Part shown: positions 6,161-34,608 of the stretch, in pieces
Numbering within the stretch: position 1 is the first letter of the stretch
Layout: each line of letters begins with the position of its first letter
IMG/VR virus record: IMGVR_UViG_3300044712_000335
Coordinates: 1-47,256 of that record
Reading direction: 5' to 3' (one strand)
Source: a virus
DNA: 47,256 nt
Program-made: the position numbers and the translations under genes
Notes under the pieces: generated by a model
What the model saw: only the letters and a program-made list of their open reading frames with translations
What the model was told of the DNA's origin: nothing
Database searches by the model: none

Positions 6161-6825
6161 AAGAAGCATACTACTTCTCGCATGATAGCAACGCAAAGGA
6201 CGATCCGAAATGTGTACTTCTAATTGAGCAATTGGGATTAGAGGGATACGGAATCTATTGGGTATTGATAGAAGTGTTGCGTGACCAATCCACATACAAA
6301 TATCCGGTTGCGCTTCTTCCATCGCTTTCCAGAAAATACAACACTACGTTTGAAAAAATGAAAACAGTTGTGTATAATTATGGTCTGTTTACTGTTGATG
6401 AAAATGACTTTTTTAGTTTATCCCTTATGGAACGCATGGAAAACTACGAACACAAGCGTTTGATGGCATCAAAAGCTGGTAAAAAATCAGCTGAACAGCG
6501 TCTTTTGGTTGCAAGTGCAACAAATAATCAACAAGCGTTCAACGGATGTTCAACAGACGTTCAACCTAATAAACTAAATAAAATAAAAGAAAATAATAAT
6601 AGTATTCCACCAACGATTGAAGAAGTATCTTTGTATTGCTTAGAAAGAAAAAACGGAATAGTTGCTCAAAAGTTTATTGACTATTATGAAATGGTTGGAT
6701 GGAAAGTTGGAAACAAAAAGATGGTTAGTTGGAAAGCCGCAGTTAGAACTTGGGAAAATAGAGAAAAAGGAAACTATCCAATAACGCCTCGTGGTGCTGT
6801 CGATGAATTTGTAAAATTCGATTAA
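6157..6825 (+). CDS. DnaD-like replication initiator
   Basis: A 222-residue protein. The N-terminus (YYFSHDSNAKDDPKCVLLIE, then EGYGIYWVLIEVLRD) is the Lin1244/Lin1753-like (DUF4373) winged-helix domain found in phage replication proteins. The C-terminus (FIDYYEMVGWKVGNKKMVSW, then KAAVRTWEN) is the DnaD-like tail that contacts DNA and the helicase system. A polar, low-complexity linker lies at about 125-150. The helicase gene follows after 11 bases, so the pair would act as initiator and helicase, using host polymerase. Confidence 0.85.
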   Translation: MKEAYYFSHDSNAKDDPKCVLLIEQLGLEGYGIYWVLIEVLRDQSTYKYPVALLPSLSRKYNTTFEKMKTVVYNYGLFTVDENDFFSLSLMERMENYEHKRLMASKAGKKSAEQRLLVASATNNQQAFNGCSTDVQPNKLNKIKENNNSIPPTIEEVSLYCLERKNGIVAQKFIDYYEMVGWKVGNKKMVSWKAAVRTWENREKGNYPITPRGAVDEFVKFD

Positions 6826-14854: not shown

Positions 14855-14858
14855 AGAA

Positions 14859-15280: not shown

Positions 15281-15402
15281 TTGTTTTTCCTCCAATACAT
15301 TATGTCTGCAATGGCGCAAGCAATTTCAAGCAAACCATAAGCGATAATACCAGATATAACAAGTAGTGAGCAGATTGCCAGTGAATAGACACCGTTTGTC
15401 AT
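15277..15402 (-). CDS. Membrane peptide (41 aa)
   Basis: A 41-residue frame beginning MTNGVYSLAICSLLVISGII and ending in the basic tail YWRKNK. One membrane span is clear. It is linked to both neighbours by overlapping start/stop codons, which supports it as a gene although it is very short. Confidence 0.6.
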   Translation of the reverse strand: MTNGVYSLAICSLLVISGIIAYGLLEIACAIADIMYWRKNK

Positions 15403-15608
15403 TTTATTTCCTTTCTGGGTTTCCTGTAATAACCAACATGCCACGGGAAATATTCTGCTTCATGTGAATCAAGTAAATACTTATATGCTTTTTCTCCATT
15501 CAAAACGATTTCTGCATATTCTTCATCACTTGATACATTATGATTCCCATAAAGGAGATCAAGATATAAATTGTAGTCATGTTCGGCTTTTTCCAATTTA
15601 CCAGTCAT
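15399..15608 (-). CDS. Unknown protein (69 aa)
   Basis: A 69-residue tyrosine-rich, acidic helical protein (LEKAEHDYNLYLDLLYGNHN). The ribosome site GGAGACAAA precedes the start. It overlaps both neighbours by four bases. No family is recognised. Confidence 0.6.
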   Translation of the reverse strand: MTGKLEKAEHDYNLYLDLLYGNHNVSSDEEYAEIVLNGEKAYKYLLDSHEAEYFPWHVGYYRKPRKEIK

Positions 15609-15814
15609 TTTGTCTCCTTTCTGTATCTATCCCATAATGTCATCCATGTATCGTTATCATTTGCGTTTTCTGTTGCCCATTCATAAGCATCGTTAATAAT
15701 TTTTTCTTGTTTGCTGTAATTCGTTTCGCCTGTCAATGTTGCGATTGTTCCTGCCGATAGATTGATTAAGCATCGAATAGAATTGTCTTTGCCTTGATTC
15801 ATAGCATGATTCAT
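15605..15814 (-). CDS. Unknown protein (69 aa)
   Basis: A 69-residue helical protein (starts MNHAMNQGKDNSIRCLINLS) with a good ribosome site (GAAAGGAGTAAAACA). It is the first gene downstream of the hammerhead ribozyme at 15837-15891, so ribozyme cleavage would place it near the new 5' end of the downstream mRNA fragment. Confidence 0.6.
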   Translation of the reverse strand: MNHAMNQGKDNSIRCLINLSAGTIATLTGETNYSKQEKIINDAYEWATENANDNDTWMTLWDRYRKETK

Positions 15815-15836
15815 TGTTTTACTCCTTTCTATATTT

Positions 15837-15891
15837 GGTCATCGTCAGGTAACGCATTACGTTACTACGTGCAATTAAGCACGTTTCGACC
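15837..15891 (-). ncRNA. Hammerhead ribozyme, type II (stem II open), upstream of 15605 gene
   Basis: Read on the minus strand: GGTC, GAA, ACGTGC-loop-GCACGT (stem III, 6 bp), A (cleavage base), GTAACG-loop-CGTTAC (stem I, 6 bp), CTGACGA (conserved core), then T and GACC. GGTC and GACC close stem II (4 bp). All invariant core positions (CUGANGA, GAA, A-U pair of stem III, H17=A) are present. The one deviation is an extra U (position 15841) between the core and stem II. Cleavage is predicted after position 15866. It fills the gap between the genes at 15906 and 15605. Confidence 0.8.
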
Positions 15892-15905
15892 TATATTTAA
15901 CTTAT

Positions 15906-16073
15906 TTAATAATCCTGTACCAATTTGCAAAATCCCGATTCAATATCATGTGCAACCATATAGTCTTCTTTAGCATCCAACGCCATAACATAATCACATT
16001 CGAAACGATCAACTTCTTCCCAACGTCCGTTATAATCAATTACCCATAGAACCCATTTATACGTCTTTTCCAT
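15906..16073 (-). CDS. Unknown protein (55 aa)
   Basis: A 55-residue protein (MEKTYKWVLWVIDYNGRWEE at its start), a small two-strand/one-helix protein with an acidic body. The ribosome site is TAGGAGGTAGGATAA. The first hammerhead lies 15 bases behind its stop codon. Confidence 0.6.
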   Translation of the reverse strand: MEKTYKWVLWVIDYNGRWEEVDRFECDYVMALDAKEDYMVAHDIESGFCKLVQDY

Positions 16074-16091
16074 TTATCCTACCTCCTATAT

Positions 16092-16286
16092 TTAGCAACA
16101 AATACCATTACCAATTCCGACTATTTTGCCTTGTGCTACATATTCACCAGATAATGTTTCGATTGTGCCCTTTTCGTCCATTGTCAACTCCTCGTCAAGT
16201 TCAGCCATGAATACGATAATGTAATCATCGTCCTGCCTTGTTTTGCCTGTCATTGAATAGGGATTGAATGATATTTTATGGCACAT
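16092..16286 (-). CDS. Unknown protein (64 aa)
   Basis: A 64-residue protein. It begins MCHKISFNPYSMTGKTRQDD and continues with the strand DYIIVFMAELDEELTM. It ends in Cys-Cys. Ribosome site GAGGAGATAAAACA. No family is recognised. Confidence 0.6.
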   Translation of the reverse strand: MCHKISFNPYSMTGKTRQDDDYIIVFMAELDEELTMDEKGTIETLSGEYVAQGKIVGIGNGICC

Positions 16287-18966: not shown

Positions 18967-19240
18967 AATCGTACCGCCTTCCAATTGTGTATCGTTTGTT
19001 CGTGCCTTAAGACTATCACGCCATTGACAGCCTTGCAATATGCACTATGCATAATCTTTATTGGTGATGCTTGTGCATGATGTACATATGTAGTATGCAA
19101 AACAGCTATTTTGTCTAATACGATATGATATGACATGGAATGAGCGATCAGACGATGATATGCAAGGGCATGCTATGGCATAGGCTCATGCTGTGCTTAT
19201 ATGTAGTGATATATAATTATTATTACATTATAGTGCCGGT

Positions 19241-19264
19241 GGGCGGGTAGGTCGGTTGGGTGGG
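19241..19264 (+). other. G-quadruplex motif
   Basis: Four GGG runs (19241, 19245, 19258, 19262) with loops of 1, 10 and 1 bases, in a genome that is AT-rich overall. Two GG pairs in the long loop could extend or shift the register. The complementary strand is C-rich. Confidence 0.7.
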
Positions 19265-19297
19265 TACGTCCTATTCTGTATGGTATTAAGCAATTTC

Positions 19298-19356
19298 AGT
19301 TTTTTTCTACAAAAGAATATCAACATAAAGTTTTTTTACAAAAGAAATATCCAACA
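19298..19356. repeat. Two 28-base direct repeats, 31-base period
   Basis: The copies at 19298-19325 and 19329-19356 share AGTTTTTTT, ACAAAAGAA and TATC(C)AACA with small indels. The 31-base period is close to three helical turns, which suits two protein molecules bound on one face of the DNA. Confidence 0.7.
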
Positions 19357-19388
19357 AATTATCCATATCATATCGCATCATATTTCTA

Positions 19389-19417
19389 TTTACAAACCAC
19401 GGAATATATGGTAGTAT
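19389..19417 (+). promoter_or_regulatory. Promoter of the 19442 operon
   Basis: TTTACA (19389-19394), a 17-base spacer and TAGTAT (19412-19417), 25 bases upstream of the first start codon of the plus-strand unit. Confidence 0.65.
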
Positions 19418-19441
19418 GTAAGAAAAAGGAGGTAGTCTGAC

Positions 19442-19606
19442 ATGGATACAATAAATATTACTCCTGCTTTTATGGTAAGGGATGATAATGGAGAAATGGT
19501 GGGCATGTATAAGATGCCAACACCGGTGATGGATGATTTAATAGCACAGAGCCAAGCTTACATAAGAATTATGGAAATCGTAATGGAAAAGGAATTCATA
19601 GATTAA
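19442..19606 (+). CDS. Unknown peptide (54 aa)
   Basis: A 54-residue methionine-rich protein (MDTINITPAFMVRDDNGEMV at its start) with an AAAGGAGGTAG ribosome site. Short but placed between a promoter and further genes that share the same ribosome-site style (AGGAGGTAGG), so it is accepted as real. No family. Confidence 0.6.
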   Translation: MDTINITPAFMVRDDNGEMVGMYKMPTPVMDDLIAQSQAYIRIMEIVMEKEFID

Positions 19607-19622
19607 AAGGAGGTAGGGGAAA

Positions 19623-19796
19623 ATGACAATGGATAAAGCAATAAGGATGTTGACAAACTACTCTGTTCTTTTATCTACACAAGATGAACCTTATGACAGA
19701 GAAATGGGAGAAGCTATTGATATTTTGCTAAAAGAATATAGGAAAGCTAATCAATACAGGTCATGGACGATTTCACCGGAGGAAATGGGGAGGTAG
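19623..19796 (+). CDS. Unknown helical peptide (57 aa)
   Basis: A 57-residue acidic helical protein (MTMDKAIRMLTNYSVLLSTQ at its start) with ribosome site AAAGGAGGTAGGGG. The pattern D-K-A-I-R-M-L ... A-I-D-I-L-L-K-E-Y is a helical hairpin common in small phage proteins. No function is recognised. Confidence 0.6.
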   Translation: MTMDKAIRMLTNYSVLLSTQDEPYDREMGEAIDILLKEYRKANQYRSWTISPEEMGR

Positions 19797-25902: not shown

Positions 25903-26382
25903 TTAATTTACCTCAAATGCATTAATTCTGGCAAATTCGCCATAATTGTTAATTGCTGATTCGTTGTACGCTAATGCCGCATCTTTTTCATCCTTGAAAT
26001 ATCCAAGATGTATTTGTCTTAAATCTATTTTTATTCCAGACTTCCACATTTCCATCTTTTTGCTCCAACTAACACCTTTGTACTTGCTGGTCATTCCGAT
26101 TTTAGGTTTTTGATTTCGTATGTTTTGTTTTATTGTACAAATCCTAAGATTTGTTTTATGGTTGTTTAACTTATCTCCGTTTATGTGATCTGTACACATT
26201 CCCTTTGGAGTGTTCATAATCAACCGATGGAGAAGAACGGTTTCTCCTTTCGGAGATTTTGTTCTATCGGTTGCCGAAAGATATCCACGACTACTTACAT
26301 ACCATGAATGTGATAAAACTATTGGCAAATCCTCGTCATCAATTTCAAATGCAACATGATTTTTCTTGGTATAGCAGGTCAT
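25903..26382 (-). CDS. HNH-AP2 homing endonuclease (copy 3 of 3)
   Basis: A 159-residue protein. HNH core at about 55-90 (LLHRLIMNTPKGMCTDHING, NNHKTNLRICT), AP2 domain at about 100-155 (KYKGVSWSKKMEMWKSGIKI, LGYFKDEKDAALAYN). Very similar to copy 2 but with an insert (DRTKSPKGET) near residue 40. It sits directly between SSB and the terminase, the position where HNH genes often sit in phages. Ribosome site AAAGGAGGGAAAAT. Confidence 0.92.
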   Translation of the reverse strand: MTCYTKKNHVAFEIDDEDLPIVLSHSWYVSSRGYLSATDRTKSPKGETVLLHRLIMNTPKGMCTDHINGDKLNNHKTNLRICTIKQNIRNQKPKIGMTSKYKGVSWSKKMEMWKSGIKIDLRQIHLGYFKDEKDAALAYNESAINNYGEFARINAFEVN

Positions 26383-26442: not shown

Positions 26443-28077
26443 ATGGCAAAAAAGATTAGTGGACTACCACCAGAGATAATTCGCAACATTGTTGTTGAAG
26501 ATGTTATAAACAAAGCGTATATTCCGTACTTAAATGGGATATGGCATTATGAAGTTTACTATGGTGGCGCAGGTTCGGGGAAATCGTTCTTTGCGGCAGG
26601 TCAGAAAATAGCCATGCAGATGTCTGCTATACCCGGAAGAAACATGCTTGCCTTGCGTAATTCAGCTAATGACGCTAGAGATTCTGTTTATCCAGAATTG
26701 CTAGGAGCGTTAAGACAGTTTCATCTTTTGGATGTTTGGAATATCGTGGAACATCCAAAGATAAGGCTTACCAACCTTGCCAATGGCAATGAAATAATCT
26801 TTGATGGACTAGACGATGTTGAGAACATTAAGTCTATCAAATTCAAAAACGGAAACCTAACAGATGTTCTATTGGAAGAAGCAACTGAAATAAAAGACCC
26901 CGGAACAATTCGGCAGTTGGACTTGCGACTTCGTGATATGAACCAAAAAGGGAGAATAATCATTCTGTTCAACCCTGTGTCTGCTCAACATTTTTTGAAG
27001 AACATGATCGAAAAAGAGTTCATCCCTAGCGGAGATTGCATTGTCTGTCATACTACATATAAAGATAATAAATTTTTGCCTAAAAGTTATGCACAAAGCC
27101 TAGAGGCTCTACGCTTTACTGACCCCTACAGATACATGGTGTATGCCCTAGGTCAATGGGGGGTTATGGGAGCATCTGTATTCAATGCGAATATCATACA
27201 TAAGAGGTTGCAGGACTTAGCACAAATTCGTGAAAAGGTTCAACCGATAAGAGGTAACTTCTCATATTCTCGTGACGATAATGGGCATATCCTTGTTTCC
27301 TCGTTTGAATTTTACAAGAATGAAGATGGCGAAACAAAGATATACGTAGAGCCAATACCTAGACACCCTTATGTTATGTCATTGGATACAGCAGGAGAGG
27401 GTTCGGATTACCATGCTTGCCATGTTATAGACAATCTAAGCGGTGAACAAGTGGCAGTATTCCATTCGCAGGATAATCCAGATAGGTGCGTGTATCAAGC
27501 ATTTGGACTAGCAACGTACTACAACAATGCTTTGTTTGTACCGGAAGTGAACTTTGATTCATACCATCTGAACAAATTCAAGGAATTAGGGTACATCAAC
27601 ATCTATCAGCGTGGCACTCCGTCCGATTCGTATTCCGATGGTTATGTACAGAAGTTAGGCTTTCGTACAACTGTTGAAAATAGACAAAGAATGTTGTCTG
27701 AATGTGTGGAATTTGTCAATGCCAATGCAAATCTTATCAACGATGAAGAAACATTAAACGAGTGTTTAACTTTTACTAGGCAAGAAAAAAAGATGAAAGG
27801 TATATTTTGGGGGGCAGAGCCGGGAACGCATGACGATCTTGTAATGGCTTTTGCTATCGTTTTGCAAGCTAGACAGCAAGCACCGTCATATATGGTAGCA
27901 GAACAGATAGGCAAACTGACAGGTGAATGGACAGAACAGGAGTTAAAAGATGCAGTAGTAGGCGGTAGGGTGTCAAATATTCAAGCGATTGAGTACAGAA
28001 GAACGCACACGCACAAAAACATCACTACCATTGGTGGTGATAAAAAGAAGAAAGTGGTAGGACGATATGGTAGATAA
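26443..28077 (+). CDS. terL: Terminase large subunit
   Basis: A 544-residue protein. Walker A is VYYGGAGSGKSFF (GGAGSGKS at 41-48), Walker B is LTDVLLEEA (about 139-147), and a coupling segment RIIILFNP follows. The nuclease half has VMSLDTAGEGSDYHA (Asp315), and the last acidic pair is in THDDLVMAFAIV. This is the standard ATPase-plus-RNase-H nuclease layout; it cuts and pumps DNA into the head. Ribosome site GAGGGAAATGTAA. No small subunit is adjacent; the only candidate is at 18053. Confidence 0.95.
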   Translation: MAKKISGLPPEIIRNIVVEDVINKAYIPYLNGIWHYEVYYGGAGSGKSFFAAGQKIAMQMSAIPGRNMLALRNSANDARDSVYPELLGALRQFHLLDVWNIVEHPKIRLTNLANGNEIIFDGLDDVENIKSIKFKNGNLTDVLLEEATEIKDPGTIRQLDLRLRDMNQKGRIIILFNPVSAQHFLKNMIEKEFIPSGDCIVCHTTYKDNKFLPKSYAQSLEALRFTDPYRYMVYALGQWGVMGASVFNANIIHKRLQDLAQIREKVQPIRGNFSYSRDDNGHILVSSFEFYKNEDGETKIYVEPIPRHPYVMSLDTAGEGSDYHACHVIDNLSGEQVAVFHSQDNPDRCVYQAFGLATYYNNALFVPEVNFDSYHLNKFKELGYINIYQRGTPSDSYSDGYVQKLGFRTTVENRQRMLSECVEFVNANANLINDEETLNECLTFTRQEKKMKGIFWGAEPGTHDDLVMAFAIVLQARQQAPSYMVAEQIGKLTGEWTEQELKDAVVGGRVSNIQAIEYRRTHTHKNITTIGGDKKKKVVGRYGR

Positions 28078-28381
28078 CATTCTTATGGCAATCATTCTTG
28101 CTACACTCGCTGTTACGATTTATTTTATTATGCGTTGGAAGATTCGGAATAAGAACGATATGAAACTATTGGAGTATTACTTTTCTGTGATACAGAGCAA
28201 TACGAATATCATTCAGAAGTTGGCTGAAAACCATAGTATGCGATTCAACGAGTTGGAAGAATTGTTGAAAAGTGAACCGAAGTCCCCCTTACAAGAGGGT
28301 ATAGAATTAAATGAGGGAATACGAGCGCATGAAGAAGTGGAAGCGTATAAGAAGTATCTTAGAAGCAGGAGAGAAAACTAA
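28067..28381 (+). CDS. Small membrane-anchored protein (104 aa)
   Basis: A 104-residue protein with one N-terminal membrane segment (NILMAIILATLAVTIYFIM) and a charged, coiled-coil-like remainder (IIQKLAENHSMRFNELEELL). It overlaps the terminase end and meets the portal gene at the stop/start. It could be a lysis accessory (spanin-like) or a virion protein; neither is supported by motifs. Confidence 0.6.
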   Translation: MVDNILMAIILATLAVTIYFIMRWKIRNKNDMKLLEYYFSVIQSNTNIIQKLAENHSMRFNELEELLKSEPKSPLQEGIELNEGIRAHEEVEAYKKYLRSRREN

Positions 28382-30300
28382 TGGCTGAAAGATTTGGCGA
28401 ACAGATATACGAGGATAAACTTCGGCAAAACAAGAATTACTTTGGTTATACGGAACTAATGACAGAAGAACAGCGTAAGCGTGGCAGATACTATGCACAG
28501 GCTTATTCAAGGCGTAGGGCAGAGGTTGATTCCATTTCAGATAAACTGTCATGGGATGAAATAGAACGTCTATATGCTTGCGATAGGATATCTAACAGCC
28601 AAGATTCAAGCTATCCTAATTCTTTTATTCCGCTATTGACACCTACTATCGAGGGGCAAGCGGCACACATGACTTCTGCTGATACGGAGTTTAACTTTGT
28701 ATCGGATAATCCTGCACATGAAATGTACATGAGCAAACTTGATGCGGCTGATTCGTACATGCGTAGGCAAGGTAAGTTCATGTTGCAGATGAAAGATTTC
28801 ATTCGTTCGTATCTATCACTAGGCGGTGCATGGCTTACTGTCGAATGGACAAAGGCTTATGGCAAGAACGCCGGAAAACCTGACGGCTATGCAAGAGCAA
28901 AGGTTATTCCGATAAGGGATATTCTTGTTGATGGTAGAATCAAGGATTTCAAGGATGTACAGGATGCTGAATATATCATTCACGAAATAGGATTTGTTCC
29001 TATCATTTGGGCAAGGGATGAATATGGCGATGAATACGCCGATGCCCTTATGACACATAATAGCCGATATCAGGGCGATATGCCTGATGTTAGCGAAGAT
29101 GATTCTGATTCATTCTTGCTTCTGCATATTTGGACAAGGGCAAATAAACAGGGAAATCTTCAACTTATCGAAATGGACGAAGCAGGTTTGATTCTGCGTG
29201 AATCCGATTCTAGCAAACCTTACTATGAGCAGGTAGACAATGAATATCCATTCGCTTTTGCAAGGGGTATGCCTGTTCCCGGCTCGTTCTATGGCTATGG
29301 CGATGGCAAGATTCTGTTACCCATGCAGAAAGTGGTAAACAATCTTTGCGATGAATTGGAACTTGCTTGCAGATTTTCTTCGCAGAGCAAACTGTTTGTC
29401 GATTCAAAAGCAGGATTATCCGATGTAAGCGAGATTGATTCTGACCCATCTAGGATTGTTATTGCAAGCAACCCATCACAGAATATTTGGCAGATGCAAT
29501 CCAAAGGCATCAATCCTGCTGTTCAGCAAATGATAGATTTCCTGCTTCGTGAAGCGCAACGTGCTACAAGGTTCAGCGATGTCATGACAGGAATGAAGCA
29601 AGCCGCTTCTACTACTGCTACCGCTACACAGAGCCAACAGATACAGGGAGCAGTTGGTATCTCTGATAAAAAAGCCGACATCATGGAAGTTATGAAATGG
29701 GCAAGGAAATATTGCATCAAGTTGGCTTTGGAAAAATGGACAGCACCGTTTTGGGCAAGGGTTGGCAATAACAAGTCTGCCGAAATGGTTGATATGCCTA
29801 TGGTATCCAAAGTTCCTGCATCATCGTTGCCGTCACCGGAAACTGTGCTTAACTTTATTGCAAAGAATCCGACAGCACCGAGAGCAAATATTCCTACCTA
29901 TGACTTGGTTGAAGATGATAATGGTGAACTTGTCATGGCTGACATTGATTTCGATGTCGATATTGCTATGGGAAGCGATATGCCACACGGCAAGAGCGAT
30001 ATGTACAACATCGTCCTGTCGCTGATGCAGATGCAGGTTATGGAGAATGGTGTTCCTAAACCGTTCATGTCTGCAAGCAAGGCAAGGGAACTTATCGAAC
30101 GCTATGTTGGTATCCCATTGTCGGACGAAGATGAGGAAACAGAATCAGAAAATGGTGGTGTTATGAATCAAGGCGTGAATCCTACATCACCTAATGGTGC
30201 TATTCAGATGCCACAAGGTTCACAGATGCCTACTCCGTCCGCATTAATGAATACAACCCCCGGTACAGGTGCTGTTGATAGACGAGGAATGGCATTGTAA
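28381..30300 (+). CDS. Portal protein (639 aa)
   Basis: A 639-residue protein directly behind the terminase. The N-terminal region (TPTIEGQAAHMTS) and the FAFARGMPVPGSFYGYGDGK and NNLCDELELACRFSSQSKL blocks are typical of the large podovirus-type portal family (related to P22/T7-like portals), which forms the ring where DNA enters and leaves the head. The C-terminal 60 residues are rich in Gly, Gln, Met and Pro. Ribosome site AGGAGAGAAAACTA. A strong terminator follows. Confidence 0.88.
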   Translation: MAERFGEQIYEDKLRQNKNYFGYTELMTEEQRKRGRYYAQAYSRRRAEVDSISDKLSWDEIERLYACDRISNSQDSSYPNSFIPLLTPTIEGQAAHMTSADTEFNFVSDNPAHEMYMSKLDAADSYMRRQGKFMLQMKDFIRSYLSLGGAWLTVEWTKAYGKNAGKPDGYARAKVIPIRDILVDGRIKDFKDVQDAEYIIHEIGFVPIIWARDEYGDEYADALMTHNSRYQGDMPDVSEDDSDSFLLLHIWTRANKQGNLQLIEMDEAGLILRESDSSKPYYEQVDNEYPFAFARGMPVPGSFYGYGDGKILLPMQKVVNNLCDELELACRFSSQSKLFVDSKAGLSDVSEIDSDPSRIVIASNPSQNIWQMQSKGINPAVQQMIDFLLREAQRATRFSDVMTGMKQAASTTATATQSQQIQGAVGISDKKADIMEVMKWARKYCIKLALEKWTAPFWARVGNNKSAEMVDMPMVSKVPASSLPSPETVLNFIAKNPTAPRANIPTYDLVEDDNGELVMADIDFDVDIAMGSDMPHGKSDMYNIVLSLMQMQVMENGVPKPFMSASKARELIERYVGIPLSDEDEETESENGGVMNQGVNPTSPNGAIQMPQGSQMPTPSALMNTTPGTGAVDRRGMAL

Positions 30301-30326
30301 TTACATCTTAATATTTGTTAAACATT

Positions 30327-30356
30327 AAAGGCAGTCATCCGTGGCTGTCTTTTTTG
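30327..30356 (+). terminator. Intrinsic terminator after portal
   Basis: AAGGCAGTC and GGCTGTCTT pair over nine positions (two G-U), around ATCCGT, followed by TTTTT. It ends the terminase-portal message and isolates the non-coding RNA unit. Confidence 0.85.
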
Positions 30357-30389
30357 ATATTATTTATCGATAATCGATATGTACAAGTG

Positions 30390-30398
30390 TGCTATAAT
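30390..30398 (+). promoter_or_regulatory. Extended -10 promoter of the large RNA
   Basis: TGCTATAAT, with a predicted start near 30404-30406. No -35 box is visible. Same nonamer as at 4955 and 17885. Confidence 0.55.
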
Positions 30399-30403
30399 GG
30401 TAG

Positions 30404-30912
30404 TAGGTGGATAGATAAAAAAGAATATCCACTCACCGCTTTCTCAAGGCGGTTTCGAATCTGCAATAGCAGTTGCAAATTCTTAGTGGATACTCCCCTA
30501 TATTGTACCACAAAGACAAAGAAAAGCAATTGTTAGCGCAGATTCCTCAATAGGGACTCTGTGCTTTTTGTAGTTATACAGATATTGCACAGACGGAGAA
30601 TGGATAAGTACAACGATATCTCCGTTATCAACAAATCTGGCGGTATGGCGAAGCCCATGTAGGAAGAATTCGCTCGGACAACAAGATTTATCTGTTTTTC
30701 TGTTGCCCGTGAAGCGAGTTCTAGTGATCGCTATACAAATTACTAGGGGAGGACGTTTCGGATGGGGCTTTCAAGTGGTGTGGACGAAACAACATCAATA
30801 CTTGAATGTAACGGATTGTGCGATAAAGCGACGGCGAAAGCGGTGCTAATGGCGCAAAGGTACTTCTTTCGAGGGGTACTTATGCTCAATTGCTCTGGCT
30901 CTACGGTGATAA
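30404..30912 (+). ncRNA. Large ornate structured RNA, ROOL/GOLLD-like candidate (about 510 nt)
   Basis: The region between portal and the next gene has no convincing frame but about twelve helices. In order: a three-way junction closed by 426-433/485-492 with arms 435-453 and 457-482; hairpin 535-565 (8+5 bp, CAAT loop); 593-599/619-625; a 17-bp arm 666-721; 722-728/739-745; a pseudoknot (755-760/785-790 crossing 770-776/800-806); 816-821/852-857 around a GAAA-capped hairpin; and an 8-bp hairpin with a UUCG loop (860-879). (Coordinates are 30,000 plus.) Size, structure and position in a Bacillota-type phage resemble the ROOL and GOLLD RNAs; class identity is inference. Confidence 0.8.
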
Positions 30913-30922
30913 CAATAAATTA

Positions 30923-30931
30923 TGATATAAT
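30923..30931 (+). promoter_or_regulatory. Extended -10 promoter of the head operon
   Basis: TGATATAAT, an extended -10 element, 35 bases before the start codon at 30966. No terminator was found between the large RNA and this gene, so read-through is also possible. Confidence 0.5.
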
Positions 30932-30965
30932 CGTAAATAAGATAACAATTAAGAAAGGACAACAA

Positions 30966-31571
30966 ATGCCGATAGAACCCGATGCTAAAACATATCAAGC
31001 ATTAGTAAACACAATGAAGCAAACTGACCCACATTCGCTTGGTGTACGCAACATGATAGAAAGCGTCTATCCTGCATTGGCTACCAAACTATTCAAGTCA
31101 ACCAAAACGATAATGAAGTTGGTTATGACAGGGCTGAACCCTATGGATGTTCTTGACTACCCTATTTGTAGCAAGTGCGAGGGATTGGCTTGGCTTGATG
31201 GCAAGGCTAGACGAGGAAAGAAATGGGTTGATGTTTGCCAATGCGATTGTGGCAGACGCACTATTGATCCACCTACATTCCGTGAATGGATTCGTGAAGA
31301 ATTGAAACGTAAAGCACCGCCAGATTTCATGGAAGAAGTGGCATATGTTACTGATGGCATAGCCATGCGAATGATGCGAAAAGCCATGATTCAATTCCAC
31401 AACGAAGCAGAAGCGAAAAGTGCAACGCGAAGCGGACAGATGGGAATTGTCATGCCTGATGGCTCTACCCATGTTCCTGAAAAAAATGTGGTAAAATTAG
31501 ATGAAGATGTTGCTGTACGAAGATTAGCGGAATTGAATATGATAGAAGCAGAGGATGATGACGATGTTTGA
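30966..31571 (+). CDS. Zinc-ribbon protein upstream of head genes (201 aa)
   Basis: A 201-residue protein. A basic helical start (PIEPDAKTYQALVNTMKQTD) is followed by a Cys cluster: ICSKCEGLAWLDGKARRG, then VDVCQCDCGRR, able to form a zinc ribbon. The C-terminus is acidic. The ATG at 30966 follows AAGAAAGGACAACAA; an upstream start at 30762 would run through the RNA element and has no ribosome site. Position before the scaffold suggests a late regulator or packaging factor. Confidence 0.65.
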   Translation: MPIEPDAKTYQALVNTMKQTDPHSLGVRNMIESVYPALATKLFKSTKTIMKLVMTGLNPMDVLDYPICSKCEGLAWLDGKARRGKKWVDVCQCDCGRRTIDPPTFREWIREELKRKAPPDFMEEVAYVTDGIAMRMMRKAMIQFHNEAEAKSATRSGQMGIVMPDGSTHVPEKNVVKLDEDVAVRRLAELNMIEAEDDDDV

Positions 31572-32357: not shown

Positions 32358-33218
32358 ATGGAGAAACTTGACAAAGCACCAGTGGATTTCAATGTTCTAT
32401 CCAAAATCTTCGCTGAAGCCGGTAGTCCAATGACGGAATCTGAAATAGCATATGCGAAACAGAGCAACATGCTAAAAGAACCGGAAGTGGAGCAGGCGCA
32501 GGAAGATGGAACAGAAGATATCACTGATACCGACAATGCTGACGATGTGGGAGAAACCGCCACTGATACCGCAGGTGCGGATATCGTGGAAGAAGATGAG
32601 GAACAGAGTACAGAAGATGTTCCTACAAAGACGGATTCCAAAACACTAAGCAAAGCGGACAAGAAAATCATAGCCATGAAGAACGCTATGAAAGAGAAAA
32701 ATGCTGAACTTGAAGAAGTCAGGCGAAAACTCTCCGAATACGAAAGCAAAAAACAGTTGGTGGAATTTGAAGAGGAATACGGCAAGACACTCGATGCCGA
32801 TACCGCATCCGTCATGGCAAAATCTAGGCTAGCACTCGAACAGCAGAATAGGCAATTGGAACTTCTTAATTTCAAGATCGACAATGCCAATGTCCTGCGA
32901 CAGTACAACGTAATGGAGGAAGCGCAGTCCATCATGGAGAAATCCAAAGCCGCAAGTATGACCGCTGAACAGTATTGCAGGGGCATCTACGGTGACACAG
33001 AACCATTGGACGTTAAGCGTAGCAAAGCAGGTGTCAAAGGACAGTTGCCCTCCACAACGAATAAAGCGGATTATGCCGTTGCCAATGCTAATTCAAATTC
33101 CATCACTAAAGCCAATTCCAAATTGTCCGATCAGGAACGCACACTTGCTAGACGATTGGAAGAATTGGGATTTGCACCAAAACCAGACGAAATCAAAAAT
33201 GTCCGCAAAGGACTATAA
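32358..33218 (+). CDS. Scaffolding protein
   Basis: A 286-residue protein directly upstream of the capsid genes. It is highly acidic in the first third (DITDTDNADDVGETATDTAG) and has a long coiled coil in the middle (KNAEL, EEVRRKLSEYESKKQLVEFE). The basic C-terminus (LARRLEELGFAPKPDEIKNV) is typical of the capsid-binding end of scaffolds. It should direct head assembly and leave or be degraded. Ribosome site GAGGGAACTGAC. Confidence 0.8.
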   Translation: MEKLDKAPVDFNVLSKIFAEAGSPMTESEIAYAKQSNMLKEPEVEQAQEDGTEDITDTDNADDVGETATDTAGADIVEEDEEQSTEDVPTKTDSKTLSKADKKIIAMKNAMKEKNAELEEVRRKLSEYESKKQLVEFEEEYGKTLDADTASVMAKSRLALEQQNRQLELLNFKIDNANVLRQYNVMEEAQSIMEKSKAASMTAEQYCRGIYGDTEPLDVKRSKAGVKGQLPSTTNKADYAVANANSNSITKANSKLSDQERTLARRLEELGFAPKPDEIKNVRKGL

Positions 33219-33687: not shown

Positions 33688-34608
33688 ATGGCTGGCACTC
33701 GCACTTCTGACATTGATGCCCTTATCGTTGCCGGAATCGACATGATCTTTAACCGTAACCTCCAGAACGAAACCCGTATGTATTACCCCGAAATCTGCCG
33801 TGAAGTCACACAGCCCAAGCCTACCGGTATCTATCAGACCGTTGGCGCACTCGGTGGGGCGTATGTGAAACCTGAAGGTGATAGCTTCACCTATGAATCC
33901 ATCCGTGACTACAACCAGACAACCATCACTTCACAGACGATTGGTAAAGGCGTTGCCGCTTCTTTCGAAGCACTCACCAATGACCAGTATGGCGTTACAC
34001 AGCAGACGTTCGGCGCACCTCTTACGACTACGCTTGTGAAAAAGCGTGAGCGTTATGTTGCCGATGCTTACAATCATGCTTTCGCTACGACTGGCGCAGA
34101 CGGTGTTTATCAGCTTTCCGCTTCTCATCCCCTTGAGAACTCCGCTTCGCTGAATGACAACCTTGCCACTGGTGCTATCACTGTTGAAAACATCAAAACC
34201 GCTCTTAACAAATTCAACTTCATCTATGACATGGCGGGCGAGTTCTTCGATACTTCTGCTACGCATCTTCTGATTCATCCCAACAAACTGTTCACCGTCA
34301 AAGAACTGCTTGAATCCCAGTTGCTTGCATTTGAACTGTCCAACACGAAGAACAGCCTGATGGATACCCCTCTCCGTATCGTTGTTGACAAGTACCTCGA
34401 TTACACCGTTGCTACTGGTGTTTCGCCGTGGTTCTTGCTTGACAGAACGATTACCGATGCAGGCGTGTTCTTCCAGCGTCAGACTGCTCCGAAGATGGAC
34501 TTGTGGTGGAACGAAGATACCCTCGAATATCGTGGTGCTTGTTATGAGCGTTACGGCGTGGGGATTGTCGCGCCAGGATATGGCATTATAGGCAGTTTGG
34601 GAACCTGA
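33688..34608 (+). CDS. Major capsid protein
   Basis: A 306-residue protein in the position of the major capsid protein, between decoration protein and tail genes. The blocks DALIVAGIDMIFNRNLQNET, FTYESIRDYNQTTITSQTI, GVAASFEALTND and LLESQLLAFELSNTKN give the N-arm, E-loop-like and P-domain features of the HK97 fold; codon use is strongly biased, as in highly expressed capsid genes. It should form the hexamer/pentamer shell. Ribosome site GAAAGGAAGTAAAAT. Confidence 0.88.
   Translation: MAGTRTSDIDALIVAGIDMIFNRNLQNETRMYYPEICREVTQPKPTGIYQTVGALGGAYVKPEGDSFTYESIRDYNQTTITSQTIGKGVAASFEALTNDQYGVTQQTFGAPLTTTLVKKRERYVADAYNHAFATTGADGVYQLSASHPLENSASLNDNLATGAITVENIKTALNKFNFIYDMAGEFFDTSATHLLIHPNKLFTVKELLESQLLAFELSNTKNSLMDTPLRIVVDKYLDYTVATGVSPWFLLDRTITDAGVFFQRQTAPKMDLWWNEDTLEYRGACYERYGVGIVAPGYGIIGSLGT

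Follow-up and report, generated by a model that had tools for sequence, protein, structure and literature searches.

Introduction

To our knowledge, few large and elaborately structured RNAs of bacteria and phages are known, and the RNA-only cages formed by two of them, ROOL and GOLLD, have no known function. The 659-nt ROOL RNA env-120 forms an octameric nanocage, and ROOL was non-essential in the strain studied, while GOLLD, which exceeds 800 nt in many members, forms a 14-mer nanocage; both RNAs are often located near tRNA islands (PMC12286853).

Here, we analyzed a stretch of phage DNA, referred to as the window, that comprises positions 1 to 47,256 of the IMG/VR record IMGVR_UViG_3300044712_000335 (47,256 bases). 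A preliminary description had proposed that an ornate noncoding RNA of about 500 bases, of the ROOL or GOLLD class or of a new one, is encoded here between the portal gene and the head genes. By comparing related sequences, we show that the predicted structure of this RNA is conserved in three related phages and that the RNA belongs to no known family. The second of the proposed assignments is the better reading: the RNA is best described as a large ornate phage RNA of a new class, which resembles ROOL and GOLLD in kind but apparently belongs to neither, as no Rfam model matched it.

Results

Genomic context of the RNA gene

The window originates from a tailed phage and displays the head-module order of terminase (26443-28077), portal (28381-30300), a gene at positions 30966-31571 (g30966) and capsid (33688-34608). 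Between the portal gene and g30966 lie 665 gene-free bases. The g30966 product is a Cys-rich head-module protein with a zinc-ribbon-like motif, which matched no Pfam or PHROG family and is encoded right after the portal in nearly all relatives. A tRNA scan of the window found none. The region between positions 14855 and 23000 contains many short open reading frames and several gaps of 300 to 900 bases (15341-16263 and 19039-19750, among others), in which a coarse scan revealed no Rfam or tRNA match. The terminase (TerL) gene of the window is adjoined by an HNH endonuclease gene (25903-26382) and has no intein; the TerL genes of two relatives (L240:2079-4622 and L227:1828-4248) carry an in-frame intein-like insertion near residue 480 with matches to Hint_2 and Intein_splicing.

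As the preliminary description had pointed out, a terminator and a promoter-like sequence isolate the RNA region from the portal gene (Table 1). The TGnTATAAT pattern of the extended −10 promoter recurs just before the first hairpin of the RNA, at an equal distance, in the two homologues described below (TGATATAAT in L240 and TGCTATAAT in L242). A good −35 box was not found near the window copy, nor was this copy called by a consensus promoter scan. Judging from the position of TGCTATAAT, transcription would start near 30404-30406. Downstream of the RNA, no strong terminator was found in the window, and the 3′ end is therefore only approximate. The palindrome TATCGATAATCGATA next to the −10 box constitutes a putative operator.

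Paired palindromes of the form ATTCC-N5-GGAAT, spaced 29 to 30 bases apart, precede the RNA promoter in L240 (8506-8549) and L242 (5639-5683); one of the L242 copies has a mismatch, and the pair was not found in 12 other relatives scanned. This arrangement suggests that expression of the RNA is regulated and that the pair is a candidate operator for a phage regulator. Alternatively, the palindromes, which face the scaffold gene, could serve that divergent gene. In L226, a relative with a 55% identical portal, a terminator-like hairpin (6704-6755) directly follows the portal gene and then the contig ends; an RNA gene in this phage may lie beyond the contig end.

Table 1. Predicted elements of the RNA gene and its surroundings. 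Coordinates refer to the window; L240 and L242 are the two phages with homologous RNAs.
Element	Coordinates	Strand	Sequence or pairing	Observation
Intrinsic terminator closing the portal gene, 5′ of the RNA gene	30327-30352	+	11-pair stem, loop of 4, then U-run	
Near-perfect palindrome just 5′ of the −10 box	30365-30379		TATCGATAATCGATA	Single exact occurrence in the window
Extended −10 promoter of the RNA	30390-30398	+	TGCTATAAT	Called from sequence; same place in L240 and L242
RNA, about 500 nt	30404-30905	+		Two homologues, conserved structure, no shared frame
P1, hairpin with A-rich loop	30407-30432	+	GUGGAUA/UAUCCAC	L240 GUGGAC/GUCCAC, L242 GUAGGU/GCCUAC; both sides changed at 3 positions
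P2, hairpin	30435-30453	+	ACCGC/GCGGU	AAUCC/GGAUU in the homologues; both sides changed at 3 positions
P3-P4, long arm	30457-30545	+	GAAUCUGC/GCAGAUUC, then GCAGUUGC/GCAAUUGU	P3 present in all members; sequence of outer part conserved
P5, hairpin inside the long arm	30486-30511	+	GUGG/CCAC	Homologues GUUGG/CCAAC
PK1, pseudoknot	30496-30555	+	P5 loop CCCUAU (30496-30501) with AUAGGG (30550-30555)	Pairing kept, sequence differs: L240 AAUU(A)CC/GGAAUU, L242 AUAC/GUAU
T, terminator-like hairpin and U5 tract, mutually exclusive with P3 and P6	30536-30569	+	GCGCAGA/UCUGUGC UUUUU	L240 AUAGGC/GCCUAU UUUUU, L242 ACAGGC/GCCUGU UUUUUU
P6, hairpin	30558-30593	+	UCUGUGC/GCACAGA	Both sides changed between members at 5/5 core positions
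P7, hairpin	30593-30625	+	ACGGAGA/UCUCCGU	CGGAG/CUCCG same in all three; no covariation
M1, hairpin	30643-30660	+	GUAUGG/CCAUGU	L240 GAUGCA/UGCGUC, L242 GGUGUA/UACACC; 5/6 positions changed on both sides
M2, arm	30667-30720	+	AAUUCGCU/AGCGAGUU plus inner extension	8/8 core positions changed on both sides
PK2, pseudoknot	30755-30790	+	GUUUCG (30755-30760) with CGAAAC (30785-30790) in the Q2 loop	Covaries: L240 CCGUG/CACGG, L242 CCAG/CUGG
Q1-Q2, stem	30770-30806	+	UUCAAGU/ACUUGAA with GGUGU/ACAUC	Six positions in total changed on both sides
GAAA-capped conserved motif	30825-30849	+	AAAGCGACGGCGAAAGCGGUGCUAA	Best-conserved internal segment among the members
E, 14-position hairpin	30854-30885	+	UUCG cap	Long hairpin at same place in L240 and L242
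Invariant 3′ tail	30892-30904	+	GCUCUGGCUCUAC	13/13 in L242, 12/13 in L240
Extended −10 promoter of g30966	30923-30931	+	TGATATAAT	Called by pattern scan

Two related phages encode homologues of the RNA

When used as single-protein queries against IMG/VR, the portal, TerL and capsid proteins retrieved no relatives. Relatives were obtained through a chain of profiles, in which a TerL profile led to L068 (a portal relative, 48%), a portal profile led to L226-L238, most of which have portals 34 to 62% identical, and a capsid profile led to L240 and L242. The relatives retrieved with the TerL profile (L004-L225) were too distant and had no RNA; L068 of that set supplied the second portal sequence.

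Full-length homologues of the RNA were identified on the minus strands of L240 (7952-8452) and L242 (5100-5600), two related uncultured phages, and are 58 to 63% identical to the window RNA and 72% identical to each other. Among 252 loci, blastn matched the window RNA to L240:8271-7940(−) with 63% identity over 345 nt (E value of 1.8e-12) and to L242:5604-5090(−) with 58% identity over 548 nt (E value of 1.3e-8). The family hence comprises three members, all of them metagenomic. A blastn search with the three RNAs against 50,697 phage records yielded nothing significant, as did a search with the window RNA against plasmids; an exact 20-mer pattern search gave no match, and no second copy of the RNA was found within the window. 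A 3′-domain covariance model detected no new member among 30 viral records and about 1,390 genomes from four phyla; the genome result is a weak negative since this set held no positive genome.

No reading frame or peptide is shared among the window, L240 and L242 in this region. Translation of the region was thus ruled out, the frames not being common to the homologues, and the window frame at 30762-30965 extends g30966 upstream by accident.

The fold is conserved although the sequence has changed

Compared with dinucleotide shuffles, the window region folds with z-scores of −4.0 (536 nt), −5.9 (the 505-nt transcript) and −6.1 (tile 30301-30700), and the homologues, each in its own fold, reach −3.2 and −3.6 next to the −5.9 of the window RNA. 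However, such a score alone is insufficient as proof of an RNA, because a coding stretch of the window (32358-32857) also folds at a z-score of −4.2. This stretch is a scaffold-like gene whose tile z-score is −8.3, and its strong fold is probably a by-product of coding composition. The RNA is instead established by comparative evidence.

Thirteen helices, including the two pseudoknots, recur at near-identical offsets in the window, L240 and L242 (Table 1), and P3 lies at nucleotide 57 in each of them. Within the helix cores, 218 of the 219 pairs formed by strands of the same RNA are standard, whereas the pairs dropped to 283 of 438 (65%) when the strands were swapped between phages. In some pair of sequences, 41 of the 73 core positions have changed on both sides; such compensation affects 4/4 positions of PK1 and 3/4 of PK2. 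The 3′ part is slightly better conserved than the 5′ part, and both halves covary; GOLLD RNAs, by comparison, often combine a conserved 3′ region with a less conserved 5′ region. P7 and the GAAA-capped motif are invariant and therefore uninformative on pairing. A structure derived from the window RNA could not be projected onto a plain MAFFT alignment, in which the 5′ halves are shifted; for this reason, we relied on strand-swap and shuffle controls.

As the 13 helix cores of the strand-swap count had been picked by hand, we also performed a test without manual selection, in which helices predicted from L242 alone were sought at the aligned places in the window and L240, with 300 shuffled versions of either sequence as the control. 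The summed score was 198 for the window (shuffle mean of 152) and 215 for L240 (shuffle mean of 147), that is, about 4 and 5.8 standard deviations above the mean at a shuffle standard deviation of about 11.5, and none of the 300 shuffles scored as high in either case. When each sequence was folded alone, most of the common helices had a pairing probability of about 0.7 to 0.99; M2 reached 0.88 to 0.99 and Q1-Q2 0.81 to 0.99 in every sequence. The exceptions were P2 in L240, M1 and M3, which are weak in the window, and P7 in L240 and L242. M1 is less certain in the window because it is absent from the predicted ensemble of that sequence.

Collectively, the folding has been kept in two relatives although the sequence changed, which makes this a real, hitherto uncatalogued RNA family. 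The proposal of a large ornate noncoding RNA in this region, based on the window sequence, is thereby borne out by the strong fold, the covariation and the lack of a common frame. Its individual elements were recovered as well: the long arm is composed of a part of 8 bp and another of 8 to 10 bp, two pseudoknots are present where one had been predicted, and both the GAAA-capped and the UUCG-capped elements are found.

The longest nearly invariant stretch of the RNA is its 3′ tail, GCUCUGGCUCUAC, of which no second copy with up to 2 mismatches was detected in the window. It has no clear internal partner in the window RNA, where it cannot pair as it can in L240 and L242, that is, with the P7 loop or with a GCCAGAG/GUCAGAG segment. 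The free tail would fit a regulatory RNA with base-pairing targets in the host or the phage; nevertheless, the internal pairing available in both homologues speaks against this function, no target was identified, and a fold of this size is unusual for a plain sRNA, and we regard such a role as unlikely.

The RNA gene differs in site and strand and is missing from other relatives

In the window, the RNA is encoded on the plus strand between the portal gene and g30966. In L240 and L242, it is encoded on the minus strand, opposite to the head genes, between the homologues of g31555 and g32358, approximately 2 kb further on. In both relatives, the position that the RNA occupies in the window is closed, the portal gene ending at 6765 and the next gene beginning at 6765 in L240 and the corresponding positions being 3766 and 3776 in L242; reciprocally, the L240/L242 site measures only about 150 bases in the window. 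Since site and strand differ between phages, the RNA is a product in its own right, and its gene is free-standing and relocatable rather than a leader, a UTR or the terminator of a neighbor.

The same observation bears on the idea that the RNA acts in cis, as an attenuator or riboswitch-like leader of downstream head genes. In the window, the RNA does immediately precede head genes that share its strand, and the three members share a competition between terminator-like and antiterminator-like helices (see below). However, in L240 and L242 it points at the 3′ end of a convergent gene on the opposite strand and thus has no gene to lead; moreover, the next gene of the window possesses its own extended −10 promoter, and a conserved 3′ domain of 340 nt would be superfluous for an attenuator. 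A cis-acting leader is accordingly quite unlikely.

No RNA-sized gap between the portal gene and g30966 was found in nine relatives (L227, L229-L232 and L234-L237), and the covariance model of the 3′ domain detected no copy in the 48-kb L230 record. On this basis, the RNA is apparently dispensable in this phage group. This distribution also weighs on a role in packaging or head assembly together with the portal or terminase, by analogy with the pRNA of phi29, another RNA of a tailed phage. All three copies are located inside the head/packaging module, beside portal or scaffold genes, as such a role would predict. Yet the RNA is missing at both sites from relatives whose portal, TerL and capsid are homologous, whereas an essential part of the motor would be retained. 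The phi29 pRNA is also much smaller than 500 nt, the window RNA being about three times longer, and no Rfam match linked the two. A pRNA-like function therefore appears improbable.

In L231, the slot between g31555 and the scaffold gene, which harbors the RNA in L240 and L242, contains genes for tRNA-Gln and tRNA-Thr (6644-6798), suggesting that it is a hotspot for accessory RNA genes. The 165-nt stretch following these tRNA genes folds no better than chance (z-score of −0.9).

A terminator-like hairpin competes with the 5′ arm

About 165 nt into the RNA, all three members can form a hairpin of about 11 to 13 pairs that is interrupted by a bulge or mismatch and leads into a run of five or six U residues (hairpin T in Table 1). 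Hairpin T excludes both P3 and P6, since its 5′ half overlaps or abuts P3 and the strand that forms its 3′ half is also the 5′ strand of P6. For nascent RNAs ending at the U-tract, the energies of the terminator and P3 forms were −52.2/−53.4, −43.5/−42.3 and −44.9/−47.7 kcal/mol, a gap of 1.2 to 2.8 kcal/mol in all three. A simple consensus terminator scan of the window and the homologues did not call hairpin T.

According to this model, the polymerase would stop early at hairpin T or, if P3, PK1 and P6 formed, would proceed to the full RNA. The layout could represent an attenuator, a possibility that we raise tentatively because the U-tract doubles as the P6 loop and the consensus scan passed the hairpin over. 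The mutually exclusive helices resemble those of T-box and amino-acid-leader attenuators; unlike these, two of the three copies have no downstream gene on the same strand, the RNA carries a large conserved 3′ domain, and no Rfam leader model matched.

Searches with models of known RNAs

At gathering thresholds, cmscan of the whole window against Rfam 15 yielded no match. With permissive filters and E values of up to 10, the RNA region of the window produced only noise (DLEU2, L20 leader, RybB and ceN114, with E values of at least 2), and nothing relevant was obtained for the L240 and L242 RNAs at E values of up to 3. The ROOL and GOLLD models, which the preliminary description had named among the checks to be made, were thus without a match in all three members. 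In seven relatives, cmscan matched only a tRNA, the set containing no ROOL-bearing positive control. Group I and group II introns, known ribozymes and tmRNA were discarded as candidates, as neither Rfam nor ARAGORN gave a match. No tRNAs were found in L240 or L242.

The notion of a divergent ROOL or GOLLD, i.e., of a known nanocage family, draws on the phage setting in a late region, the size of about 500 nt and the several pseudoknots. In addition, the tRNA genes in the corresponding slot of L231 recall the frequent location of ROOL and GOLLD near tRNA islands (PMC12286853). Against it stand the missing model matches, the absence of tRNAs from the window and the length of the RNA, which is shorter than the 659-nt ROOL env-120 and the GOLLDs of more than 800 nt (PMC12286853). 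The sequence and structure models thus largely refute this assignment, which we consider highly improbable.

Discussion

The RNA described here exhibits the features of a large structured phage noncoding RNA: it is noncoding, free-standing and covarying, contains pseudoknots and occurs in several phages. The explanation that we favor, and consider fairly probable from the sequence comparisons, is that a free-standing gene at this locus encodes an elaborately folded accessory RNA of about 500 nt, which acts in trans and founds a new family of phage RNAs. Like ROOL, it would be a large phage RNA gene with several pseudoknots, lacking a known protein partner and apparently dispensable; it differs from ROOL in matching no model, in being shorter and in carrying the terminator-like switch in its 5′ part. 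Like GOLLD, it is ornate and phage-encoded, and a relative carries tRNA genes in the corresponding slot, but it matches no GOLLD model, measures about 500 nt and has no tRNA in its unit.

We propose that the RNA would be transcribed late in infection from its own promoter and would fold into a compact multi-helix particle held together by the two pseudoknots. By analogy with ROOL and GOLLD, it may then act as an RNA-only or RNA-protein assembly that aids late infection and is dispensable for head building. Relatives that have the same head genes manage without the RNA, which is why we prefer such an assembled particle over a component of the packaging motor. A further step is more doubtful, namely, that this relocatable class has a built-in switch, in which the 5′ 165 nt would choose between the terminator and the pseudoknotted arm, and the full 500-nt assembling RNA would be made only conditionally or late.

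If real, the internal switch would represent an unusual control over the making of a structural RNA. A further phage family unrelated to ROOL and GOLLD would provide an independent case for what such RNAs do, and the phages described here offer natural comparisons, both between relatives with and without the RNA and between copies placed at two sites on opposite strands.
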